DNA of 64,000 nucleotides, taken from NCBI RefSeq assembly GCF_963675165.1, contig NC_087380.1, positions 3,649,803 through 3,713,802 of the forward strand. Reading direction: 5' to 3'. The stretch's first letter is position 1. Each line of letters opens with the position of its first letter. Source of the stretch: Halichondria panicea. Lineage: Eukaryota; Porifera; Demospongiae; Suberitida; Halichondriidae. The notes beneath the pieces were generated by a model. The model was given only the letters and a program-made list of their open reading frames with translations, searched no databases and was not told the DNA's origin. The position numbers and the translations under genes are program-made. Shown one piece after another: positions 738 through 27,514 of the stretch.

Positions 738-3700
738 ATGAGTGGAAATGTTCTTCTGGTGAAAAACAGGAGTCAAGTAAAAGGAATAAGGTAGATCTAT
801 ATCTATAGAGTAGTATCTAGACTATTAATAATTAATTTTATATCGATAGATACCGTACTGTATAGAGTAAACAATGGAACTTCGAACAACACGGATTTTT
901 GAACGATTTAGCACCACGGTAAGCAAAAACAAACAGCGATATGCAGAATCTGACCCTACACAAGCCGACTTACATGCCTTAGGAACAAGCTGGGTTGAAT
1001 AGCAACATCGTAGCTCTTGCAATGATGACGTAATAATCCAGAAAACAAAAGTGTGCGATAGTTGGAATTTCGAAAAAAGTAATGTATCCCCGAACCGAGG
1101 TACTTGCCGCTTTAATTAGCTAATATCGAGCTTCCCATCAGCTTTAGTATGTCCTATTTAGGTATGTAGTGAACATAAGCAACACACTAAAATTACTTCA
1201 CTGCTACTCAAAACTGTATACAACCATCCACGTGGGTGTTAAAAGTGCTGATTCAGCACTTACTGTTCGAAAGTTTATTGTTTGTTTTGAGTAGCAGTGA
1301 AGTAATTTTAGTGTTGCTTATGTTCACTACATACTAAATAGGACATACTAAATAGCTGATGGGAAGCTCGATATTAGCTAATTAAAGCGGCAAGTACCTC
1401 TGTTCGGGGATACATTACTCTTTCCGAAATTCCAACTATCGCACACTTTTGTTTTCTGGATTATTACGTCATCATTGCAAGAGCTACGACGTTGCTATTC
1501 AACCCAGCTTGTTCCTAAGGCATGTAAGTTGGCTTGTGTAGGGTCAGATTCTGCATATCGCTGTTTGTTTTTGCTTACCGTGGTGCTAAATCGTTCGAAA
1601 ATCCGTGTTGTTTGAAGTTCCATTGTTTACTCTAGCGGGTATATTTCGAGGGTAAAAATTCTACCTGTATCATGTGTACATGTACCGTATAGAGGGTATA
1701 TTTCGAGAGTATAAAAATGTTCGTGGTTTTCGCAGATTAAGCATGTACCGCGAACATTTATAACCGCGAATTTAATATCGCATGCATAATTATATGCTGC
1801 AAAAGGCTGCTATTCCATGAAAATGAAATCCGCAAAAACCTTTCTAAAGGCATTTTCATGAACATTTTTACCCTCGAAATATACCCGCTATACAGTATCT
1901 ATCGATATAAATTATTGTAAACTGTTAGATTAATGTTTTACTTCAGGAACCTTCTTGAGGGGTCTGGTTACTATGACAGATCCCGTTGCATTCAGCATAT
2001 CAACTCTACAATTTCTGGGAACTCAGACAATTATTTTGCAATCCCCATCACAACCGCGTGCATCGCACACCTCAACCAGCTGGCAACCCTCCCCATACCT
2101 TATACTGACTGTATTGTAGCACACGCCCAACTCCCTCTCTCTAAGAAAGCAAGAGCCAAGTTGCAGACGCCTTATCAAGTTCTCCGAGAAGCTGTTAAAA
2201 GTTTTCTCATCGACACACAACAATGCACCGTTGAGGACATTGAAACTCTGTTAAAGGACGTACCAAGATCGTGGGAAAGACATGGCGACTTGATTGCCTT
2301 GCCAGAGGACTCGTTCAGCGACTCAAGATGGCAAAAACATTTGCAATTGGTGAACGTAGAAATCCATAAACCCATTAGTGAAGAAATGCTGTTTGAGCAA
2401 AATCCACAACCAGGTGATGATGGTGGTATAACTATGAAGGCAGGAACAGAGGGCACAACACGCTCCCTGCTAAATGTGATAGCTGTTGCTCTCAACTGCA
2501 GAAGACTTGCTATCGACAGAAGTATATCATGTGACTCTTATCGGAGCTCGGGTGCATTGCTGTTGCTAGGAGACGACGGATGTGTGGAGCACGTGGACAA
2601 TGGTGTACGTTACGTGTTTGATGTCACCAAGTGTATGTTCTCCTCTGGTAATATAAGTGAGAAGTTACGAGTGGCCAACTTTAATTGTAAAGGAGAGACA
2701 GTTGTTGATTTGTATGCTGGTATTGGCTACTTCACCTTGCCCTACTTGGTACACACTGGCGCAGCTGTGGTACATGCTTGTGAGTGGAACAGTCATGCTG
2801 TGGAGGCTTTGGAGCGAGGTTTGCGTGCTAACAACGTCCACGACAAATGTGTTATTCACCATGGAAACAATCAAAAGGTGTGTGTCTTATCAGTACGTGC
2901 TCACAATCATATATTATAATTTGTGTTGAAATTTTTGCTGAACTAACGGGCAAAACATAAAGATCCAATAGATTTGTTCTCCGGAAGAAAATTGTTTATA
3001 CGGTTCCGGTTTAAATTTACTAGCTACGTAAGTGCTATAATTATGAAGTACCATGTTACACCACCCCCTTCAGGTGGCTCCAGTGGGTGTGGCTGACCGT
3101 GTAAACTTGGGACTGGTGCCGAGCAGTGAAGGAGGATGGGCTGTAGCGTGTAGAGCACTCAGGCAAGACACTGGGGGATGGATGCACGTTCACGGTAACG
3201 TCTCGTCAAAATTCAAAATTGGAAGTTTGAGCAAACAATCTAGCGATGATACTGGTAGTGAGAGCAATCCATGGGAAAAGACATCTGTCAAAGCTAGCAA
3301 GAGAGTGTCTGATGAATGCATTTGTAAGAACTCGTATGTAAAACTGAAAGAGCAATCATTATCTGCTACAAGCATCGGTCAAGGAGAAGTACTCTGTGTT
3401 TGTGATCATCAGCAAATGAATGAAACAACATCAGGCCAAGAAAAAATCGGGAAAAAATCGAAGCCATTAAGTGATGGTGAAACTGCTTGCAAATCTAGAG
3501 CAATGTCTCCTCAAGAAGTGTCAACTGATACAAGCCAAGACGGAACCACAATCCACACAGAACACTTAACTTCTTGTAGCAGAGTATTTCACGAATCCAA
3601 GGCCCCTATGAAACGAGAATTGTGGGAGGGATGGGCTCGCCATGTGGCTGGAGATATGTTAGAGTTGCTAAGAGCGCAAACCCCTGTTGGTGGGAAAGAT

Positions 3701-3796
3701 TGGAAGGTCACTGTGGGACACTTAGAGCACGTTAAATCTTATGCTCCTCATGTTGATCACATTGTTGTGGACCTTGAGTGTAGACCAACTATATAA
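738..3796 (+). CDS. TYW2: tRNA wybutosine-synthesizing protein 2 (TYW2/TRMT12)
   Basis: Three exons: 738-790, 1947-2877 and 3074-3796 (stop TAA), 568 aa. The first exon is inferred from phase: it ends in AG and the next begins with G, giving an uninterrupted frame. TYW2 transfers the 3-amino-3-carboxypropyl group of S-adenosylmethionine to the tricyclic base at position 37 of tRNA-Phe, a step of wybutosine synthesis. Visible family signatures are PRSWERHGDL, LLLGDDGCVEHVDNG, KCMFSSGNISEKLRVA, the SAM-binding DLYAGIGYFTLP, HACEWNSHAVEALE and the C-terminal VKSYAPHVDHIVVDLEC. The vertebrate protein is about 450 aa. The excess is mainly a Ser/Lys-rich low-complexity insert between the GWMHVHGNV motif and the terminal domain, roughly 3195-3600. 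Intron 1 contains a large foldback element. The N-terminal exon is the least certain part. Confidence 0.9.
848..1915. repeat. Large foldback element in TYW2 intron 1
   Basis: Two arms of about 350 bp, 863-1214 and 1284-1634, are near-perfect reverse complements around a 69-bp loop. Outside the arms, 1635-1890 carries CGGGTATATTTCGAG blocks related to the TACCGTATA miniature elements elsewhere in the window. The outermost borders (about 830-858 and 1889-1915) are again inverted copies of TATCGATAGATAC. There is no coding capacity. It looks like a nested foldback or MITE-type DNA element. Confidence 0.85.
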
Positions 3797-7100: not shown

Positions 7101-10100
7101 AGCCACTGCCATCATTCTCATGAGGCCTGAGTGAGAAAAGATCCAGTCAGAAGTAAGTACATGAGTCAGTTCGTAGTTTACATGCAATTGTAGACTACGA
7201 CCTGACTCACTCGTCCCACGTCTGACATAGTTTTCTTTTAAAACTTTCTCAGGCAGACCGAATCTGAAGTAGTATCAAAAACAAGTCAGGATGGCCGAGT
7301 GGTCTAAGGCGCTACGTTCAGGTCGTAGTCTACAATTGTAGGCGTGGGTTCGAATCCCACTTCTGACATATTTTTGGCTATAAGTTTTTCAGGCAGACAG
7401 AATCAAGTCAGGATGGCTGAGGCGCTACCATTCAGGCCGTATGTTGTTAGGCGTGTGGGTTCGAATCACTCTTCTGATATACTTTTTGTTTTTGGGCTAT
7501 CAACAATTTAAGTTTCTCAGGCAGACCGAATCTAAAGTTAATACTTCCAACAAGTCAGGATGGCCGAGTGGTCTAAGGCGCTACGTTCAGGTCGTAGTCT
7601 ACGATTGTAGGCGTGGGTTCGAATCCCACTTCTGACATACTTTTTGGCTAGGAACGTTTCTCAGGCAGACCGTGTCTAAAGAATTTCTTACATAGCAAGT
7701 TAGAATGGCTGAGGCGTGGCTGAAGCGCTACATTCAGGTCGTATGTTGTTAGGCGTGTGGGTTCGAATCACACTTCTGACATACTTTTTCTTTTTGGACA
7801 AGTTTCTCAGGCAGACCAAATCTAAAGTAGTACAAGTCAGGATGGCCGACAAGTGGTCTAAGGCGTAGCGCTACGTTCAGGTCGTAGTCTACGATTGTAG
7901 GCATGGGTTCGAATCCCACTTCTGACATTTTTGGCTAGGAAAGTTTCTCAGGCTGACCGGCATCTAAAGTATTTCTGCCCGTCAGGATGGCTGAGGCGCT
8001 ACATTCAGGCTGTATGTTGTTAGGCGTGTGGGTTCAAATCACTCTTCTGATATAACTTTTTTATTGGGTTATCAACAAGTTTCTCAGGCAGACAGAATTT
8101 AAGTACCTCCAACAAGTCAGGATGGCCGAGTGGTCTAAGGCGCTACGTTCAGGTCGTAGTCTACGATTGTAGGCGTGGGTTCGAATCCCACTTCTGACAT
8201 AGTTTTTCTTTTTGGGCTATTAAAAGGTTTCTCAGGTAGACCGAATCTAAAGGTAGTTCCTACGCAAGTCAGGGTGGCCGAGGCGCTCTTCATTTAAGCC
8301 TTACAGTCTACGATTGTGGGCGTGTGGGTTCGAATTACACTTCTGATACATGTATACTTTTTCTTCTTGTGCTATCAAACAATTTCTCATGCGGACCGAA
8401 TCTAAAGTGGTACCTCCAACAAGTCAAGATGGCCGAGTGGTCTAAGGCGCTACGTTCAGGTCGTAGTGTATAGGTGTGGGTTCGAATCACACTGCTGACA
8501 TACTTTTCTTTTAATTCTTGGGCTGTTAAAAGTTCGCAGACCAAATCTAAAGTAGTAAACAAGTCAGGATGGCCGAGTGGTCTAGGCGCTACGTTCAGGT
8601 CGTAGTCTACGAGTGTAGGTGTGGGTTCGAATCCCGCATACCTTTACTTGATTCCATGGACTCGAAGAACATTGGCACTAAGCACATCAGGTGGATCACT
8701 TCAGAGGCAAGTAGACAGTGGCACTGCAAGTAGCTGCAAAGGAAAGAAAGCACTCTACAATAATTAAGTCATCAATTGCAATATACACTTACAATGCTTC
8801 TTTCTCTTTTCTTGGGCTCTTTGTTGTAAAACTACACAGCAGGGATATATCAATGAGTGCATGAGCTTTGGAAAACGTTATGTATGTGACCTTATCTCCA
8901 GTGAGCCCATCTTATTCTGTACACTTTCCATGATAACACAGAGACTCTTGTACAACTCCAGATAAAGGTTCCCTTCACGCTGTATAAGAAAGAATCGATG
9001 CCATCTCAACACACATTCTAAGCTATTAGCAGGAGAAATAGCCCAGGGATTAAATGCAAAAGCAAATTAGAAAAAAATTGGCAACTCTGAAAGATGTACA
9101 TGTATGCGTTGCTTTGCAAAGCAGCATCCCACGTGCACGCTGAGTGCTCACCTTCTTCTCTTCTCTGTCAACAGCTGCAGCACTGAGGAGTAGTGAGGCA
9201 TAGTCCAGGGTCATGTGAGCTGGCAGCCCAAATAAGTCCACACACCTCACTTTCCTGTGGTATGACAGAACACATTCAATTTCATATATGTAATCACATA
9301 ATTGTATTATGTGTTAAACGTACAGACATCTATAATTATAGCTAAACATGAGTCCTTGAATGGAACTATATAATTATGTTAGCGTAAGTACCAGTAGATA
9401 GTTCATCGTAGCTAAATGTACTTAGCATTCTAACAGAGACAAAATGGCTAATCAATAATTTTGAGTATGACATCGTTTTTGACATGACTACTATGGACGA
9501 TCCCAATCATTCAAAAAGTGTGAAAAACACTGTATACCCAGTGTAGGTCTGACATGCACACGAATCACTACAAGTTCAGTGCATTTGGCCTGGACGTTAT
9601 CACGTGACCGTAATGATATCAATGCACTAAACTTGTAGTGATTCACGCACGTATGTCGCCTCCTCTGACTCTTACCCAATAAAGTTTAATTTGGCTGTCT
9701 CCAGTGTGGCTCTCATGAGGTTGAGGGGAAGATCATATTCAAGCCCTGCCATTAACAACAGTAGGAGCATGTTGCACTGCTCCGTTTCTTTTTCTCTCTC
9801 CTCTATTAGTGCCTCCAGGTCCGGGAGGAGGGGGGTGTGGTGTGTGTACCGCTGCTGCAGCTGCAACTCTTGGTGGATGGAGTAGGCCAAGTATGATAGT
9901 CGTTTCTTGTCCATTTCTGCATACAATGAGAAACAGTGTAAATTAACGATGGTATATACGCACTGTGATTGCACTTACCAACATTGTGTGTGTAATTGAC
10001 TGGGAAACAGGCCATAAGGTGAGTTGTCTGTAAAAACAAGGCATAATGCGTGAATGATTAAACATAATATTGTCATGCAGCCTCAAGGACAAGGTTTTTA

Positions 10101-12410: not shown

Positions 12411-13684
12411 ATGGGGTGCCGTTTGTGTCAAAATGCTGATTTTATCCACTTATGCAGAAGTACACTGACTTATACACAAGTGCACAGACTTATACCACAA
12501 GTACACTGACTTATGCAGAAGTACACTGACTTATGCAGAAGTACACTGACTTATACACAAGTACACTGACTTATACACAAGTGCACAGACTCATACACAA
12601 GTACACTGACTTATACATAAGTATGCTGACTTATACACAAGTGCACTGACTTATACATATAACCTGACTTGTATACAAGTACTTTCACTTATGCACAAGT
12701 ATGCTGACTTATACACAAGTATGCTGACTTATATACAAGTACACTGACTTATGCACAAGTGCACTGACTTATACACAAGTGCACAGAATTATTTTAACTT
12801 TTAACCTTTAACCCTTGCACTTACAGAAGCTCTGTAAACATTACTAAGAACAGGCTAGGCACATGCATGTACAGGCAGAGTCAAGGGGCAGACAATAGTA
12901 ATGTTTACAGAGCTTCTGTTAAGAGTTGTAGCAGCTTGAAAATTGCATTAGTAAACAGGTTTAAAGCGTTTGACAATACTTGCACATTTACTTGAAGATT
13001 CTGTCATGTCTCTAGTCTATAGAACAACCATGTGCAAAGGGTTAAAGGTTAAAGGTTAAATTAATTTAGCACGTGCACTTGTGTATAAGTCAGTGTACTT
13101 GTGCATAAGTCGGTGCACTTGTGCATAAGTCAGTGCACTTGTGCATAAGTCAGCATACTTGTGCATAAGTCAGTGCACTTGTGCATAAGTCAGCATACTT
13201 GTGCATAAGTCAAAGTACTTGTACAAGTCAGGTTATATGTATAAGTCAGTGCACCTGTGTATAAGTCTGTGCACTTGTGTATAAGTCGGTGCACTTGTGT
13301 ATAAGTCTGTGCACTTGCGTATAAGTCTGTGCACTTGCGTATAAGTCGGTGCACTTGCGTATAAGTCGGTGCACTTGTGTATAAGTCAGTGTACTTCTGT
13401 GTAAGTCAGCATACTTGTGTATAAGTCAGTGTACTTGTGTATAAGTCTGTGCACTTGTGTATAAGTCAGTGCACTTCTGCATAAGTCGGTGCACTAGTGT
13501 ATAAGTCAGTGTACTTGTGTATAAGTCAGTGTACTTGTGTATAAGTCTGTGCACTTGTGTATAAGTCAGTGCACTTCTGCATAAGTCAGTGTACTTGTGG
13601 TATAAGTCGGTGCACTTGTGTATAAGTCAGTGTACTTCTGCATAAGTGGATAAAATTAGCATTTTGACACAAACGGCACCCCAT
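12411..13684. repeat. Giant palindrome built from a 20-bp minisatellite
   Basis: The left arm starts with a unique block (ATGGGGTGCCGTTTGTGTCA at 12411) that returns as its reverse complement at 13665-13684. Between them lie roughly 18 units of a 20-bp repeat (TTATACACAAGTGCACTGAC) at 12432-12790, and roughly 28 units of its reverse complement at 13068-13650. The centre has two further inverted pairs: TTTAACCTTTAACCC-type blocks (about 12795-12820 and 13036-13060) and AGAAGCTCTGTAAACATTAC against GTAATGTTTACAGAGCTTCT (near 12826 and 12899). Units vary in sequence (TATGC/TATAC, GTGCA/GTACA) but keep period 20. Confidence 0.95.
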
Positions 13685-13828: not shown

Positions 13829-16535
13829 TTAGTGTGGTTTTGAGTCTGGGGAGTATGCTTTTGTGGATCGCTTGCGAGGTTTCGGCAGTGGTGGTGGTGA
13901 GGATTGGGGAGAGGGGAGACGAGCTCGCGGTGATCGAGAGGGAAATTGGTCACTCTGTAGGTTGGGGGGTGGTTGTTGGAGGCTTTGTACTGGAGGAAAC
14001 TGACGAGATGGATGCTCGCTTGATATGGAACTAAAGTGTGTACGGCATGGCTGCTGTCTCGATGTGAGAGGAGAAACTTCCTCATATGGTAATGGAGGAA
14101 GCTGACGAGATGCCTTTTCATAAGGTGGTGAAGGGGGAGAGGATGGGAGTGATGGTAGTACTGGAACACTAGTAATATCATCATCATCATCATCATCTGT
14201 GGGAAAGTTCCTTAATGGAGAGTCAGGCTTTATCCAAATGCCATAGTAACCGGTTTTGAAGTTCCCACTATAAAAATAAATGATATGTGAGTTCACACAA
14301 AGCTACAGGCTATAGCTATGTACAGCAGGACAAGGTAGGTTACTACATTACCTGGTGCCTAGTTTTCTTGTTGTCAGCCCAATGAATACGGAACGAATGA
14401 GCTTTCCAAAGACCGCTGCATTGACAGGATTGATACTAAATGTAGCACAGTGCCTCAGGTAATGATTATAAAGTGTTTTCTTGGAAACATTGCAGCCTTC
14501 AGAAGCTTCAAAATTTTCACAAAGCCATTGGATCTATGAACACAAAGATCAGATAAAGAGAGGATCAGTTATTAGCAACAACAAAACAACAGACTTAGTT
14601 ATGTTTTGTGTGAGGCTTCTGAACGTTTGATATACCTATTTTATACAAACTTAAGTCAAATTGACATTGACAGCAGTACGTAAGAACAACTTACAGTCTG
14701 TGAATGGATTTTGTAAGCATATCGCATTCCCATCTGTCCTTGTTGAGCATCTGCGGACACAAGCTTACCGGACCTGTATTGCAACAACATACTAATTCAT
14801 TTGGTATAATTATGACGATCACTATGCCAGACATGAGAGTGTGACTAGGAGCGATCATGCTCCAGCTTGGAGTGATCATTATTTTGCTTAATTAGTGTGT
14901 GCTTTGCCTTACTTGACTAAAGATGAGTACGGTCCAGAATCATTTCCCGAGAATGTAGCGCAGAGTGACGTATACTGATTGGCATCCTTTACAGACACTA
15001 TAAAAATCACATACAGTCATATTTTTATGCTTGTCAAAAATTAATTTACCTGAACCAGGATCTGCAGATGAAGAAGTTTGGAGTCGTCCTTGAATCCAAT
15101 TCTGTCGGATTTCTTCTCCAGTGCCGTACCCACTCTCCCCTGTCACATCAGTAGCTTCTTCTTCATTTGTAGGGAGATCAACTTCTGTATAAAGTATACA
15201 TAGTTGAAAAAATAATACAAGCGTTGTGCAGATCCTATAAGTCCTACACCTGGTACGTGGTATAGTCGAGCAACAATAGAAATTACCTGCTAATATACGT
15301 TTAGTAGAACCTTTCCTTCCAGATCTTATAGTAACGATACCATCTAGGTCAGAAAACTTCGCTAATGACCTGGACTCATCTTCCTCTTCATCAATGGCGC
15401 CTAATCCGAATCGGCTCAATTCTATTAACTGAGCATCAGAAATCGGCAGAACGTTTGTAGCTATTGAAACTGGAATAGAAAATGTTAGGAATACACATCC
15501 CTTTTGAATAGATTCTAATGACAAAGCCCAAGAATTTATGTGCAAGGTCTTAGCTATACGGTTACAGAGTATAGTTATCTGCTGCAACATAATGGGACCT
15601 TCTTCAAAGTATTTCAGAGCAAACTTTGAGTGTTTACTGTCCTCGTTTTGACCAGGATGAAACACAGCGTGTGGCACTTCGAACACATTGTGTTTACAAT
15701 ATGAATTGAACTCATCCAAGTACTTTTGCATTTCGCGTTTGTCTTCTGATGACCCATATTCATTCACGACTAACTCTATAGTTTGATGATTGAAGAAAGA
15801 AGCCCTTTCCAGTAGAAGAATCATAAGCACTTGAGTCATTGTCTTCGAACTCATCAGCTGCATCTTTTCTTCTTTTGAAAAGATTGCAGAGGCTGATAAG
15901 AAAAGCTTAACACTATCTATTTCATCTTTGAAAGCTGGGGACTTCGACAGTGACAAGCAGAGCTTACGAAATGCACTCACAATTGATTTGTAATCAGTAG
16001 TTAACTTGTCGAGTAACATGTGTTTCTCTGGCTCACTTAAACGTTTAGTATCGAGATAAGGAAAAGTTGGTGAGCTAATACTAGGAGTTGTTTTCTCTGC
16101 TTTTTCTTGCGGACATCCAGACATGAAGAAATCTTCTAGAGTACACTTCTGACAGTATGGGCACACAAATCCTGGACCTTCACTTTCTTCAGAACTTACG
16201 AGTTGCTTCCCTTTGTAACATTCCTCGACTTTTCTGGTACAGTCATGCATCCATTCACCTTGACTCCTCAAAACAGCAATAAAATCTTCAAACAGTGCCG
16301 GTCGAGACTTTACCCTACATTCTACAGCACTGATAATTTTTCGAGCCCTAATAGAAGGTTCTGAGCCGGGGCCAACCTGTTTCAAACTTTCATATTCACT
16401 CTCTGATAAAAACCATTTACTATGGAATTCATTCCCCATATTGTCGATATTTCCTTTAATTGAGTCGATGAGTAGTACAGAACACTCTACAATCGTCTCC
16501 CATTCTGGCGATGCTTTTTCACGAGACGTATCCAT
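13829..16535 (-). CDS. CARD-type death-fold protein fused to an RFX DNA-binding domain (copy 1)
   Basis: Six exons: 15287-16535 (ATG at 16535), 15050-15184, 14913-14997, 14695-14773, 14352-14533 and 13829-14267. They sum to 2169 nt (722 aa) with every phase consistent. Residues about 10-100 look like a CARD (LLIDSIKGNI, FLSESEYESL, RARKIISAVE, LFEDFIAVLRS). Cys 125, 128, 131 and 141 form a possible small metal knuckle. Residues about 155-390 are a conserved alpha/beta region I cannot name (FPYLDTKRLSEPEKHML to LSRFGLGAI). Linker exons 2-3 carry GESGYGTGE and DSGPYSS. Exons 4-6 encode an RFX winged helix, about residues 514-597: QTIQWLCENFEASEG, TLYNHYLRHC, NPVNAAVFGKLIRSVF, TTRKLGTSGNF and YYGIWIKPDSPL. 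One family Arg in the wing (GTRGN) is Ser here. The tail (598-722) is Pro/Ser-rich and ends in basic residues. Likely a nuclear regulator controlled by death-fold assembly (inference). The exon structure is predicted from sequence alone. Confidence 0.85.
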
Positions 16536-17411: not shown

Positions 17412-20047
17412 TTAAATTTTTTGTTGCATTCTCAGCTTGCTAGGTTTTGGAAGTGTTGGAGGCGGACGACGAGAGGGCTTACGAGCTTTTGGTAGTCTAA
17501 GAGGAAATTGTTCATTTTGTAGATTGGGAGATGGGAAGGACAACTGCTGAAGGAACGATTGTGGGAGACGCTTCAGTACTTGAGGGAGCTTACTAAATGT
17601 AGATGGCAGCTCACTTTGTAGAGAATGGTCCGAGGGATGATATGACTGCTGTACTGGTAGAAGAGGCGGTTGCATTTGATGATCAGATTCCTCACTTGGT
17701 AGTGGAGGTAACTGGTAAGCCAATTCCTCACTTAAAGGCTGACAAGACAGTTTTTCATTTGGTAGCGGAAGAGGGGAGGATAGCAATGGTGATAGCACTT
17801 GAACTTCAGGCATCTCAGTCTCATCTGTGGGAACGTTGCGTAAGGGAGAGTCAGGCTTTATCCGGATGCCATAGTAACAAGTTTTGAAGTTCCCACTACA
17901 CATAAAATTATAAAGATAAAGGAGAGGTATTTCACTATAGAAGGTATTACTTCTATATACTTTACCTGGTGCCTAGTCTTTTTGTTGTCATCCTAGTAAA
18001 CAATGAGTGAATGAGTTTTCCGAACACTGCTATAGTGACAGGCTCCATACTTAACGCAGTACAGTGTCTCCGGTAATGATCATAAAGTGTAGTCTTGGAA
18101 ACATAGCAGCTTTCAGAAGATTCCAAATTTTCATGAAGCCAGTGGAACTTTTATGGGAAAATTAACCAGATGAAAAGTAGGTGTTGGAAAAAATACTATA
18201 GCTATATTAAAGTAGATTTAGGAATATAACGTCAAGAACCATGCAAGACATACTGAACTCAAACATGACAAAAATACAATGTACCGTCTGCGTCCTGAAA
18301 GCGTATCGCATTCCCATCTGCTGTTGGAAAGCATCTGAGGACACAAGCTGGTTTGACCTGTATAGCATGTAACGATAGGAGGAGGATCACTCTGCCCGAC
18401 ATGCAACATGAGACTGCATGCTCTTAGGGATACACGTATATAGTTCTCCAGAGACTGAGTGCATGCATGTGTTTGGCCTTACTTGACTATATATAAAGAT
18501 TCGTATGGTCCAGAATCCTTTTCTGAGAGTGTAAGAAGTGGCGTATACAGATGCCAGTCCTTGATAGACACTGCATAATTATTTCAGACGACTAATAAAG
18601 TCCTCCATTGCCACAAATATTTACCTAAGTCTGAATCTGTAGACAAAGTGCTTTGATGTCCTTCACCAATCCACTCCTGTAGGACTGCCTCTCCAGTGCC
18701 GTATCCACTCTCCCATGTCACATCAGTAGCCTCCTCTTCATTATCAACTTCTGACAATATAGAAATTATAAATGTTGCATGCGTTTTGAACATTAGAAAT
18801 ACCTGCTTTATATAGTTCATGTTTGGTAGAATTTTCCCTGTCGAGCTTTAAAATAGTATCGTCAGTAGTATTCGAAAACTCTTCTAACGCTCTATCATCA
18901 ATGGCACCTAATCCATATCGGCTCAATTCTGTCAACTGACCTTCAGAAATTGGTAGAACATTAGTGGCTATCGCAATAGGGATGGCAAATGTTACGACTA
19001 TGCACCCCTTTTCAATGGATACCAATGACAAAGCCCAAGAATTTATGTGCAAGGTCTTTGCTATACGGCTGCAGATTTTAGTTATCTTCTGTAACTTAAT
19101 GGGATCTTCTTCAGAATCAGAGTATTTCAGGGCAAAGTATTTCGAGTGTTCTCTGTCCTCGGTATGACCAGGATGAAACACAGAGTGAGGTACTTCGAAC
19201 ACATCGTGTTCACAATAAGACTTAAACTCCTGCAAGTATTTTTGCATTTTGTGTTTGTCATCTGATGACCCAAATTCATTCACGACCAACTTTATAGTTT
19301 GATGATTAAAGAAAGAAACCCTTAGTTGAAGAATCATGAGCACTTCAGTCATTGTCTTTGAACTCAGTAGTTTCATCTTTTCTTCTTTTGAGAAGATTGC
19401 AGAGGCTGATAAGAAAAGCTTAATATTTTCTATCTCATCTTTCAAAGCTGGGGACTTGGACAGTGCCATGCAGAGCTTACAAAATGCACTCACAATCGAT
19501 TCATAATCAGTAGTTAACTTGTCAAATAACATGCGTTTCTCTGGCTCACTTAAACGTTTAGTATCGAGATAAGGAAAAGTTGGTGAGCTAATACTAGGAG
19601 TTGTTTTCTCTGCTTTTTCTTGCAGACATCCAGACATGAATAAATCTTCTAGAGTACACTTTTGACAGTACGGGCACACAAATCCTGGACCTTCATTTTT
19701 TCAGAACTTACGAGTTTCTTCGCTTTGTAACATTCCTAGACTTGTTTGGTACAGTCACGCATCCATTCACCTTGACTCCTCAGAACAGCAACAAAATCTT
19801 CAAACAATGCCGGTCGAGACTTTACCCTACATTCTACAGCACTGATAACTTTTCGAGCCCTAATAAAAGGTTCTGAGCCGGGACCAATCTGTTTTAAACT
19901 TTCGTATTCACTCTCTGATAAAAACCATTTGCTACGGAGTTCATTCCCAATACTGTCGACACTTCCTTTAATCGAGTCGATGAGTAGTGAAGAACACTCG
20001 ACAATCGTCTCCCACTCGGGTGAAGCTTTTTCACGAGACATATCCAT
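17412..20047 (-). pseudogene. CARD-RFX paralogue, copy 2, with exon 1 disrupted
   Basis: Same layout as copy 1. Exon 1 covers 18803-20047, then 18625-18750, 18483-18570, 18285-18357, 17966-18147 and 17412-17895 (stop). The CARD part (ATG 20047) is intact for 103 codons. Then a GAG codon is TAG (19736-19738), and a one-base loss in an A-run near 19700 shifts the frame just before the Cys cluster. From FVCPYCQKCTLEDLF onward the frame is open to the end of exon 1, and all later splice phases match copy 1. The RFX domain is complete (FHWLHENLESSES, TLYDHYRRHC, VFGKLIHSLF, KRLGTSGNF, YYGIRIKPDSPL) and the Pro-rich tail is kept. Either this is a recent pseudogene, or a downstream start or alternative splicing yields an RFX protein without a CARD. 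Assembly error in the A-run would explain the frameshift but not the stop. Confidence 0.75.
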
Positions 20048-21974: not shown

Positions 21975-24900
21975 CTAAGAGAGCAAGGCTGCGTGTACAG
22001 GGTATTTTAAGGTGGTAGTGAGTCTATGGTTATGCTCTTCTAAAGAGTTCTCTTTGTAGAAAAAGACCAACTCCTCCAGGGAGTTTGAAGTACACGGGAG
22101 AGAGAAACCATATTTATTATTAAGAGTGAACACCTTCAAGTGGATAAGGCCATTATACCTGTGGGGTGTGCATGTGTGTCAAAGATTAGCACAGTCTTTA
22201 ATAAACACAACAAGACGTTGTAGTATACAGAAGCCTGTAATTATAGAGGTCGAATGAAAACTATATGCCCAAGAGCAGGATATATATACAGCTGTATACC
22301 GTATAGCGTGTAATTTTCGGGGGACAAAATATTCGTAGTTGAGCAGTATTTAGTCATTTGTGCATATTATTTTCGTGGTTGCTGCTTGCACTGCAGGTAA
22401 AAGTAGGCAAGGTCGCTTCATTCGTGGGTAAAATATTCGTGGTCAGACCTTCAACCACGAAAACCACGAATATTTTGCCCCACGAAAATTACCCTCTATA
22501 CGGTAGTAAACATAGACCTTTCCTGTGGTTGGAAAATAGAGGAAGTTTGAGGAAAATAGAACACAGTCAAGGGCTTAAAATCGAATAATTGTAGCTGCCA
22601 CATGCAGTTGCAATGCGAGTACGCTCGATCAGTGGAGTATAGGACTAAAATATTGGGGAGCCTATAATTATGTGGCCCCCCTGTTCCTACTCCACTGCAG
22701 CTATAAGTGTTTTAAGCTTCTATAGCCATGCTCTATAGCTCTTGAATTTGATTAGCAAATCATTAATTATAGGCTATAATTATATACATATTGCTTACGG
22801 TTACCAGTACTTAAACTTGAAGGTCAACGTTGCTATTCTACTTATATAGGAGTTTTAGCTCTACACCAGAGCGCTATAGCAACTGCTAGAATGATAAAAG
22901 AGCTGCAAAGCTGCACTAAGCAGCAGTTGCAATGCACAGTTTTCCGATCGTACTATAATAGCTCACATAATTTATGGCGGATATTATTTGCCAACGATAT
23001 CCTCAGAAATGCTTGTCACAAATGGTGCAATCTGATAGGTTACTGAGAGGTCCCTTATGAAAATTTATGTTTCAAGTCATAGCAATGATGATGCAGTGCA
23101 TTAAGTATTTTTGTGTTCTGCAGTGCAGCTTTGCAGCTTTTGTCTTACTCATGCAGCTACCAATAGCTCCTAGTGTAGAGCTAACTACTAAGACTCAGTG
23201 GCGTAGGCAGAGGGGGGCTGACGGGGCTAGAGCCCCCCTTTTGTGCGTAGTTACTAGAATGATGTCATTCAATGGAAATGTGGGCAAGGCCATCTACTGC
23301 ACTAGCCTCGATTCCAGGCTGAGTTATTTCTAGCTAGACCGACAACTTCGTTTTATTAAAAAAAAAATCAGCCTGGGATCGAGGCTATACTACTGCGCAT
23401 GCTTACTGCTGATGAAAAAGTGATTACCTTTTTTTTAGGTAAAATTGCAAGCTATTCAGCGCCTGCTCTGGCCCTGCTCAACGGATTTGAGCCCTGCCCT
23501 TCCCAAAATCCCGGCTACACCACTGTAAGTAGAATAGCAACTTTCTATTAGCAGTTTTTGCTATGCATGATTCTCAAGAGACAGAAACCGGCGGCCTTCA
23601 GTGTGAGTTTTTTTTTATATAGACTAGCCAGAGTGAAGCTTAAACATTGCTTGCAGAGTCTTCTTTGTGTTAATATATAGCCTAGCTTGCTTAGCACTAT
23701 TCTAAATCAGGCCTCGTCCAACGGTCACTGTGGGATTATGAGACCTCAGGCCCTTAGTAGCGCCCTCGCTGTGCTTGGGCCCTCGGGGTCTCATAATCCC
23801 ATAGAGACCTTGGACTCGGGAGTGCATTAACTAATTACAATACTTTTTGTTCACAGTAAGACATGCATGCACGTCTATAGAGATTTACCCATGAGTCTCA
23901 AGTATACACTCACATTATATAGAGGAAGTACGCGTGCATACTGAGCACTATAATTATACATGGGGACAATATATGTGCGTACGTACTAAGTTTGTGCATT
24001 ATAGGGAAAAAGCACTCACACAATGTCAATGCTGTGAGTATGTAGTAGCTGCTCTCCCTTCGGCAATAACCATTGGTTAACAGTGGGCCGACAAAGGAAG
24101 GTACCATTCTCTTTATTCCTCAATAGCTCACTAGCCATGTGCCTATAAAGGGGGAGGAAAAAAACTGTAATACTAAATCGGTACAGAGTGTGGAGCAAAA
24201 GCATACTAATTTTCTATAGCTGCATGCATCTTGACCATTATTTTAGCTAACATAATTATTAGACAAGTATACAATACAGGTTATAGGCTCACCTGTCTAC
24301 CTCACAATACCATGTCTCCCTTCTTAAGTGAGTGTTAGATGCCCCCTACAAAGAAAAATTATCACATCTCTGAGAACAAGATGCTGATAGAACATTCATC
24401 CTGTATGTGCACTGGCATTATACAGAATTAATTTTATACACATTTAGCTTATCTATATAAACTCACTGAGAACAAAAGACTTATTTACATGCATCTATTA
24501 ATTGTTGTTATCTATTGCATTATGTAGCTTATTACCAGGACCTCAAGAAAGAAGAAAATTGATTCTTCCAGGATCTGCAACCATTGAGCAGTTACAGCTG
24601 CAACAGACACACACGTACACACACACAGTCAGCTTTACCGTATCGTTCGTGCGGCTACGCCTCGAAACATAATTAGAGCACTGAAGTGCTAACCCTCGGC
24701 TATTGACATGAAAATTGCTAGGATTGGCCGGGAAAAACGACTCGTAAACGAAAAAAGTACATGTGAATGATGCTTTTGGTGGTTCCTCTGGCCAATCCTA
24801 GCAATTTTTCACATTTCAAATGTTTTTCTAGTCGGATATCTAGATGATTGGGGAGAGTTGGTACCATTGGTTAATTATCACTCTCAATTCTCAATATCTG

Positions 24901-27514
24901 CATGGTTGTCATTTTCTTACAAACGCCAACACTAGTACTCACCCCCGCACCTTTTGTATACCCTCTCAAAGTACACACACACACACACACAAACGGGCCG
25001 ACATGCAGAGCAATCATTATACCCCTGCAGCGTATATCTGCATTTGCACACTCGGGATAACTATTTACATGCGATCTTGAAGTGACAGCTATATATGAAG
25101 TTACTTACTGATACTGAGTAGAGTATTTGATGTGTTGGTGTTGTAGGTAGTGGGGGAAATGGTTTATCCTCTCTATCCGGTCGAGGAGGCCGTCTGGGAA
25201 GGATGCCCCTATGATTACAGGGGGGTAGTTTTAGGGTAAGCAAACTCAGCTGTATGTCTGGCAGTGGTGGGAGTGCCCTTTGACTATAGGAGTGAGTGGG
25301 AAACTGGAAATACTGGGGCGAACAATTTTTTTTGGGAGTGGTGGTGCAGTATTGGGAACTGATATGAGGGAAACAAGATCAATAGTAACGGTTCACTTGG
25401 GGCAGTAGTGTTTGATTGTATCACAAACTCTATTTATACATATAGCTATAAGCTCTTTAATCCCATTCTAATCTAACCCACCGAGTCAGAATTGAGTTGG
25501 TTGTGACAAAGCGTTAAATAGAAGGTATTTACATGGCTGCATGTGCATGCATGGGTCACCGGGGTGTTCCTATAATTATATAGAGTATATGTGTGTAGCT
25601 TCAGCCGACTGTTTCACTTGTAGTCGTCTTTACTCTATGTGCATGTTGACAGAACTAATCTGAGCTGACCAGGATTCAATCAGGATTAAAACCTCGTGTA
25701 AACACGGCTATAGAGAGAATGGTTAAACCTATTAACTTATGGACTAAAGTAATATAATTATACGTAAAATAAGTAGAATTGTCTCTGCAGCTTCAAGAAT
25801 ATGGCACCCAAACATACCACGCCTGAGAAATATAATGCAGTACAAATGAACATTGGCAGGCAGCGTTGCTGGCCACGGTGCTCTCAGAATGCTTATGTCA
25901 TGCTCTTTAAACTTCGTATGTATGGCCTTACTTGACAGATGTGTACGGTCCAGAATCAATTTCTGAAAATGTAGCAAGCAGTGGCGTATACTGATTGGCA
26001 TCCTTTACAGACACTGTATTTCAGACAAATAAAATAATGTATAGTCCTAAATTGCCAAAAAACAATTTACCAAAGTCTGAATCTGCAGACACTGACATGC
26101 TTTGGAGTCCTCCTTGGATCCATTGTTGTCGAACTGCTTCTCCGGTGCCATACCCACTCTCCCCTGTCGTGTCAGTAGCATTCTCTATAGTAGTAGAAAT
26201 GCCAACTCATATATAATTATAGAAGGTACAGATAACAGTATAAGTTAGCCATTGGTATACACGTACCTATCAATTCTTAGATTATAGAACTTCACTTACT
26301 CAATACATACCTGATTCATATTCTTCTGTTGTAGCAACTTTTCCATGTGAGTCTTCTAATGCACCAATGTCTTTATCACCACCTAATCCGTATCTGCTCA
26401 ATTTCATCAACTGAGCTTCAGAAATTGGCAAAACCTCAGTAGCTATCGCAATAGGAATGGCAAATGTTAGGAATACACACCCCTTTTCAATGGATACTAA
26501 TGACAACGCCCAAGAATTTATGTGCAAGGTCTTCGCTATACGATTACAGATTTTATTTATCTTCTGTAACATAATGGGACCTTCTTCAGAGTATTTTAGG
26601 GCAAATGTTGAGTGTTTAATATCCTCGTTTTGACCAGGATGAAAGACAGCGTGTGGCACTTCGAACACATTGTGTTTACAATACGAATTGAACTCATCCA
26701 AGTACTTTTGCAATTCACATTTGTCATCTGATGACCCATATTCATTCACGACTAACTCAATAGTTTGATGATTGAAGAAAGAAGCCCTTTCCAGCAGAAG
26801 AATCATGAGCACTTCAAACATTTCCTTTGAACTCGATAGTTGCATTTTTTCTTCTTTTGAAAAGATTGCTGAGGCTGATAGGAAAAGCTTAATATTATCT
26901 ATCTCATCTTTTAAAGTTTGGGACTTGGACAGTGTCATGCAGAGCTTACGAAATGCACTCACAATTGATTCATAATCAGTAGTTAGATTATCAAGCAACA
27001 TGTGTTTCTCTGGCTCACTTAAACGTTTAGTATCGAGATAAGGAAAAGTTGGTGAGCTGATAGGAGGTATTTTCTTTTCTTTTATTTTCGGACATCCAGA
27101 CATGAAGAAGCCCTCTAAAGTACACTTTTGGCAGTACGGACACACAAATCCTGGACCTTGACTTTCTTTAGACCTTTTAAATTGCTTCGCTTCGTAGCAT
27201 TGCTCGACCTTTTCGGTACAGTCACGCATCCATTCACTTTGACTCCTCAAAACAGCAACAAAATCTTTAAACAATGCTGGTCGAAACTTTACTCTATCTT
27301 CCACGGCGCTGATAATTTTTCGAGCTCTAATAGAAGGTTCTGAGCCGGGACCAATCTGTTTCAAACTTTCATATTCACTCTCTGATAAAAACCATTTGCT
27401 ATGGAATTCATTCCCAATGTTGTCGATATTTCTTTTAATTGAGTCGATGAGTAGTGTAGAACACTCGACAATTGTCTCCCATTCGAGCGAAGCTTTTTCA
27501 TGAGACACATCCAT
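21975..27514 (-). CDS. CARD-type death-fold protein fused to a p85-type SH2 domain (copy 3)
   Basis: Predicted exons: 26311-27514 (ATG 27514), 26071-26184, 25932-26013, 25109-25208, 24293-24345, 24020-24142 and 21975-22158 (stop TAG). They total 1860 nt (619 aa) with all phases consistent. The first three match copies 1 and 2: CARD about 10-100, Cys cluster (FVCPYCQKCTLEGFF), the unnamed domain, GESGYGTGE and DSGPYTS. Instead of RFX, the next exon is proline-rich (LPRRPPRPDREDKPFPPLP). The last three encode an SH2 domain, about residues 505-610: ETWYCEVDRHMASELLRNKE, GTFLCRP (FLxR arginine kept), HSIDIVYNGLIHLKV, KYGFSLPCTSNSLEELVFFY and NSLEEHNHRLTTTLKYPV. The closing motif matches the C-terminal SH2 of PI3-kinase regulatory subunits. 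No second SH2 or inter-SH2 coiled coil was found. A competing phase-compatible exon at 25744-25896 would instead end the protein after about 24 residues, so the SH2 could belong to an isoform or a separate gene. Confidence 0.65.
22297..22505. mobile_element. TACCGTATA-family miniature element in copy 3 last intron
   Basis: Ends TACCGTATAGCGTGTAATTT and AAAATTACCCTCTATACGGTA are inverted copies, with internal CCACGAATATTTTG blocks. About 210 bp. The copy at 57020-57217 is the closest relative, in the opposite orientation. Confidence 0.85.
23190..23530. mobile_element. DNA-element fragment with CAGTGGCGTAGGC / CACCACTG ends
   Basis: Begins CAGTGGCGTAGGCAGAGGGG and ends CCCGGCTACACCACTG, inverted ends of a type also seen at 40867-41785. 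Inside is a second palindrome (CTAGCCTCGATTCCAGGCTGA near 23303 against TCAGCCTGGGATCGAGGCTA near 23369). No open reading frame of note. Confidence 0.6.

Follow-up and report, generated by a model that had tools for sequence, protein, structure and literature searches.

The window analysed here is a 64,000-nucleotide stretch of the genome of the sponge Halichondria panicea (NC_087380.1, positions 3,649,803 to 3,713,802), which lies on contig C4 (7,813,905 bases) of a 131-Mb assembly. On its minus strand, from 16535 to 13829, we found a gene (copy 1) whose product would join a CARD-like N-terminal half to a domain derived from an RFX DNA-binding protein. Reading of the sequence and its open frames gave 722 codons over six exons, with GT-AG introns and consistent phases. 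The exons are the following.

Exon 1, 15287..16535, minus: 416 codons plus one base (open frame and donor), encoding a CARD-like fold (residues 8-109), a zinc-knuckle-like motif, CPYCxxC...CP (residues 125-142), a helical region and then a probable TRADD-N-like alpha/beta domain (about 298-384), as placed with AF2 models, fold matches and a family alignment
Exon 2, 15050..15184, minus: linker (EVDLPTNEEEATDVTGESGYGTGEE...), also present in copies 2 and 3
Exon 3, 14913..14997, minus: linker (VSVKDANQYTSL...), also present in copies 2 and 3
Exon 4, 14695..14773, minus: start of the RFX-derived part (...QMGMRYAYKIHSQT)
Exon 5, 14352..14533, minus: helices of the RFX domain (IQWLCENF...TRKLGT), from Pfam
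Exon 6, 13829..14267, minus: RFX wing (SGNFKTGYYGIWIK), then a stretch of acidic residues and a tail rich in proline up to the stop

Two neighbouring copies were used to judge whether these exons form one gene.

Copy 2, 17412..20047, minus: six-exon layout as in copy 1 (20047-18803, 18750-18625, 18570-18483, 18357-18285, 18147-17966, 17895-17412)
Copy 3, 21975..27514, minus: seven exons in phase (27514-26311, 26184-26071, 26013-25932, 25208-25109, 24345-24293, 24142-24020, 22158-21975), 619 amino acids; the shared module and linker, followed by an exon rich in proline and an SH2 domain of p85 type

The SH2 domain of copy 3 was most like that of PI3K p85alpha (E 1.2e-19), and the call rests on this match, as the Pfam SH2 score was below threshold (14.8 of 21 bits). 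In copy 2, the CARD is severed by a TAG within its last helix and by a frameshift that follows; the middle domain, linker, RFX part and tail are open for 540 codons beyond the frameshift. A database protein, P0007, is the NCBI isoform X3 of copy 2, a prediction from the same assembly. It starts within the middle domain and stops inside intron 5, so that its RFX domain is partial. Such predicted NCBI isoforms are commonly backed by RNA evidence. Another database protein, P0018, starts in the same region as the shortened copy 2 and may represent this shortened form at another place.

Two neighbouring genes could have been misjoined: the first, of CARD/TRADD-N-like type, would stop after either exon 1 or exon 3, and the second would be an independent gene, or a remnant of one, derived from RFX. 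The unspliced frame of exon 1 does stay open for 542 codons from stop to stop, and the protein database search yielded no copy-1 fusion protein. However, all five splice junctions keep phase and are found again in copy 2, the NCBI model of copy 2 links the middle domain with RFX exons 4 and 5, and in copy 3 the same linker exons run in phase into SH2. We therefore rejected an accident of gene modelling and consider a misjoining quite improbable. Judged by comparison of the copies, the CARD-RFX gene is a true fused gene, and the single-gene model of six exons and 722 codons in the preliminary description was borne out by the splice reading and by its recurrence in copy 2.

The N-terminus folded as a CARD-type six-helix bundle in AF2 models and fold matches, the kind of check that had been proposed for it. 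A search of the joined protein with CARD/Death and RFX profiles, also proposed earlier, succeeded for RFX_DNA_binding but not for CARD: no Pfam CARD/Death profile matched the fusion up to E 10, or 15 members of its family up to E 1. Such a profile was treated as supporting, not defining, for membership of the CARD/Death-fold superfamily. The middle domain is probably an RRM-like alpha/beta domain of TRADD-N-like type, as modelled. TRADD-N was not among the 50 fold-match rows listed for it, an absence that excludes nothing, and the Pfam profile PF13820 matched neither the genome nor the controls, so that its silence does not show absence. The family alignment, used as a profile query against PDB, gave six matches, the best at E 0.26.

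The RFX domain claimed earlier was confirmed. RFX_DNA_binding (PF02257) matched residues 514-590 over a nearly complete profile with 86.9 bits (cut-off 27), the sole Pfam domain above cut-off, and the sequence of the RFX1 structure 1dp7 matched at E 7.7e-26. The domain scored 88.9 bits for RFX1 vs 29.8 for RFX5. The RFX dimerisation domain (PF25340) was not found by Pfam in the 722 amino acids, where PF02257 was accompanied only by a sub-threshold DUF; PF25340 is listed for P0027, an RFX3-like protein of this sponge. RFX5 is an RFX protein that is not known to carry a dimerisation region.

We then compared the domain residue by residue with 20 RFX rows, many of them of RFX1-3 type. Chosen database proteins made up 16 of the rows; two more were sequences of solved structures, and the last two came from exon fragments of this genome. 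The residues replaced in both copy 1 and copy 2 included Pro18 (by Ser), Arg62 (by Ser) and Ser65 (by Phe), each kept in 20/20 rows, and Tyr67 (by Thr), kept in 19/19 rows. Arg19 and Ser20 (18/20 each) and His68 (17/19) were also changed in both copies; RFX5 shares the Arg19 to Lys change. Copy 1 alone had Arg58 to Lys (Arg in 20/20) and Arg73 to Trp, and copy 2 alone had Arg57 to Lys (Arg in 20/20) and Arg48 to His. In both, the Arg62 change falls on the first base of exon 6. Arg58 and Arg62 are residues that we take to contact DNA. The available text of PMC2533330 describes nine DNA-contact residues of RFX domains as almost entirely conserved. With invariant residues replaced, the fusion is classed from its sequence as an RFX-domain protein, not as an RFX transcription factor.

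The nearest relative of the RFX part was the gene for P0027, at about C4:3915127-3922302, some 250 kb from the fusion along that contig; the P0027 exons match the contig at 95-100% each, except for one end exon at 92%. Fusion and RFX3-like gene have intron places in common at HPQT/V and within GTR, with an identical split codon. Both ends of exon 5 and the 3' end of exon 4 coincide with exon ends of the RFX3-like gene. At the DNA level, the similarity spans exon 5 and reaches into the first part of exon 6; for exon 4 the match, and the similarity upstream, is only short. Because intron places and split codons are the same, exons 5 and 6 appear to have been copied as DNA, and a retroposed RFX cDNA was rejected, as two introns are retained at identical places. 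The match between copies 1 and 3 runs through exon 3 and ends at about 14906, seven bases into intron 3, whereas that between copies 1 and 2 carries on through the RFX exons. Since copies 1 and 2 continue to RFX and copy 3 to SH2, the junction would lie in intron 3 and bear two different ends. On this view, one capture event in that intron would have predated the split of copies 1 and 2.

Our preferred reading, to which we assign a probability of about 70%, is that H. panicea has a fused gene with the front of an adaptor family and RFX3-like exons copied as DNA, in which the RFX part serves as a relaxed or re-specialised end. The TRADD-N assignment and the origin of exon 4 are its less firm parts, and gene conversion could also account for what is here ascribed to a single capture before copies 1 and 2 parted. 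The rival explanations considered in this work are not mutually exclusive.

Selection was examined from the ratio of nonsynonymous to synonymous substitution rates (dN/dS). Between copies 1 and 2 it was 0.34 (0.13-0.80) for the CARD, 0.33 (0.22-0.48) for the middle domain, 0.53 (0.27-0.98) for the linker, 0.55 (0.30-0.97) for RFX exons 4-5, 0.49 (0.13-1.82) for the wing and 0.64 (0.37-1.05) for the tail; between copies 1 and 3, it was 0.29 (0.12-0.61) for the CARD and 0.25 (0.18-0.36) for the middle domain. A substitution-only simulation, set to 0.1, 0.15 or 0.2 substitutions per site, kept exons 4-6 of copy 1 free of stops in 7.1%, 2.7% and 1.2% of runs, respectively; for the 540 codons of copy 2, the share was 0.2% at a distance of 0.1 and 0% at 0.2. 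The openness of copy 1 alone is not decisive at low distance, because 7.1% of runs remain open by chance. This chance figure and the dN/dS values of RFX exons 4-5 and of the tail, whose intervals reach 0.97 and 1.05, together with the TAG and frameshift of copy 2 and the lost RFX residues, would fit a decaying gene, in which the RFX part drifts and the locus is heading to a pseudogene, as the severed CARD of copy 2 suggests. We regard decay as unlikely, as copy 1 is intact across 722 codons, the open codons of copy 2 are improbable under drift in that simulation, and the middle domain is under clear constraint.

The RFX-derived piece has lost residues that are usually kept, and it may no longer read DNA. 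Because Arg62, Ser65 and Tyr67 are replaced in both copies and no dimerisation domain was found, sequence-specific DNA binding by the fusion is doubtful, and binding of a classical X-box would be unlikely. It could still be a functional, signal-gated transcription factor, in which CARD assembly substitutes for RFX dimerisation and gathers several RFX winged helices on DNA. The near-complete profile, the FGKLIRSVF retained in copy 1, a basic KPRKR stretch close to the C-terminus (presumably for nuclear import) and the dN/dS below 1 of exons 4-5 speak for such a factor; the replacements in both copies (Pro18, Arg19, Ser20, Arg62, Ser65, Tyr67 and His68) speak against it, and we doubt it. A broader version, which we hold equally tentatively, is that sponge immune/cell-death adaptors took RFX3-like DNA-binding exons and that CARD polymerisation replaces dimerisation, giving an assembly-gated DNA binder or a decoy blocking the parent RFX, with the SH2 of copy 3 at the same junction. 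The altered wing and the missing dimerisation match led us to favour a relaxed or re-specialised end over an X-box factor. The CARD would assemble upon a signal and the TRADD-N-like part would recruit partners, both as in immune/cell-death adaptors, and the RFX-derived domain would be a variable effector or targeting end: most likely an end that binds nucleic acid or protein and that the CARD brings into clusters, and not a classical X-box transcription factor. The idea in the preliminary description of a death-fold platform linked to sequence-specific DNA binding therefore stood in part: the two domains are joined, but a direct route from assembly to such binding is possible and not favoured.

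The front half of the fusion is, from its sequence, part of a large genomic family and not a one-off, with RFX as one partner among several. It had 105 matches in this genome, some spanning the CARD alone or the middle part alone. Many paralogues share the N-terminal unit and differ in their C-terminal domains, with RFX and SH2 in adjacent copies. Downstream open reading frames were listed at 19 loci, and Pfam was run on six of them from six loci and on the copy 3 protein; four of the six frames flanking other members exceeded the cut-off, two with ankyrin and one each with Kelch and Death; of the other two, one had a sub-threshold AAA and one had no match. SH2 lay at most 3 kb downstream of family members at at least four hand-picked loci, a lower bound and not a rate, since the comparison took in 9 of the 105 family places and 7 of the 71 SH2 places, all picked by hand. 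At one locus (L010, on C7), the frame of a family member extends without a break to a P-loop region (sub-threshold AAA_22), a possible further C-terminal partner.

Families of this kind have been described as lineage-specific expansions of Death-like plus TRADD-N proteins in marine invertebrates. Kaur et al. 2021 (PMC8195603), in the text available, reported 357 Amphimedon NCOA6-clade proteins; most combine Death-like and TRADD-N domains with C-termini that vary, ankyrin and SH2 being two of the domains found there. The likeness extends to the N-terminal unit, the fast-evolving C-terminus, the size of the sponge family and the SH2/ankyrin partners; unlike the fusion here, the RFX term had no match in the main text of that paper. 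It proposes, partly and from DEDD2-clade genes, that new fusions arise by reverse transcription, whereas the introns kept here indicate copying at the DNA level. DEDD2/FLAME-3, termed DNA-binding and nucleolar in the same text, also has a death-fold domain, together with TRADD-N, which is probable in the fusion, but with a DED instead of a CARD and without an RFX domain. RFX1-3 factors, chiefly P0027, share the DNA-binding domain and two intron places with the fusion but differ from it in its CARD-like module, changed wing residues and lack of a PF25340 match. NF-kappaB p100/p105 are a precedent for the general idea, as each unites a death-fold with a DNA-binding domain; they differ in having a Rel domain, a C-terminal Death domain and ankyrin repeats between. 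CIITA and NLRC5 are vertebrate CARD-containing NLR proteins that act with RFX5. They are separate proteins from RFX5, which falls in a different RFX group (PMC2533330, in the text available). A link of RFX5/CIITA type was not adopted, the fusion domain being nearest RFX1-3.

Literature searches gave no report of a CARD-RFX fusion among the matches listed, judged on titles and abstract openings, and RFX had no match in the available text of a sponge NLR survey (PMC12909245). In the protein database search, 10 passed among 7983 scored, and none was a CARD-RFX fusion from another species; of the 22 family proteins in the database, P0007 alone had a Pfam label, RFX. These searches agree with the earlier statement that no such protein is described. 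The fusion thus appears to be a new combination inside the described sponge Death-like/TRADD-N kind, adding a DNA-binding-type domain to its C-terminal partners. Donor gene, breakpoint and alternative partner of the domain swap all lie on one contig, so that how such families gain new ends becomes directly testable; the present case argues for exon copying at the DNA level. If DNA binding is retained, the fusion would couple CARD assembly directly to gene regulation, and this in an animal lineage that branched off early.

Directly downstream of the fusion gene, two 20-base tandem repeat arrays, apparently in opposite orientation, were seen at 12448-12792 and 13073-13647. Elsewhere in the window, four predicted tRNA-Leu (CAG) genes are clustered at 7285-8500 (plus), with degenerate similar copies between them by eye. 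A methyltransferase-like frame (GETVVDLYAGIGYFTLPY) was noted by eye at about 1970-3795 (plus), which we take to be perhaps a tRNA-modifying enzyme.
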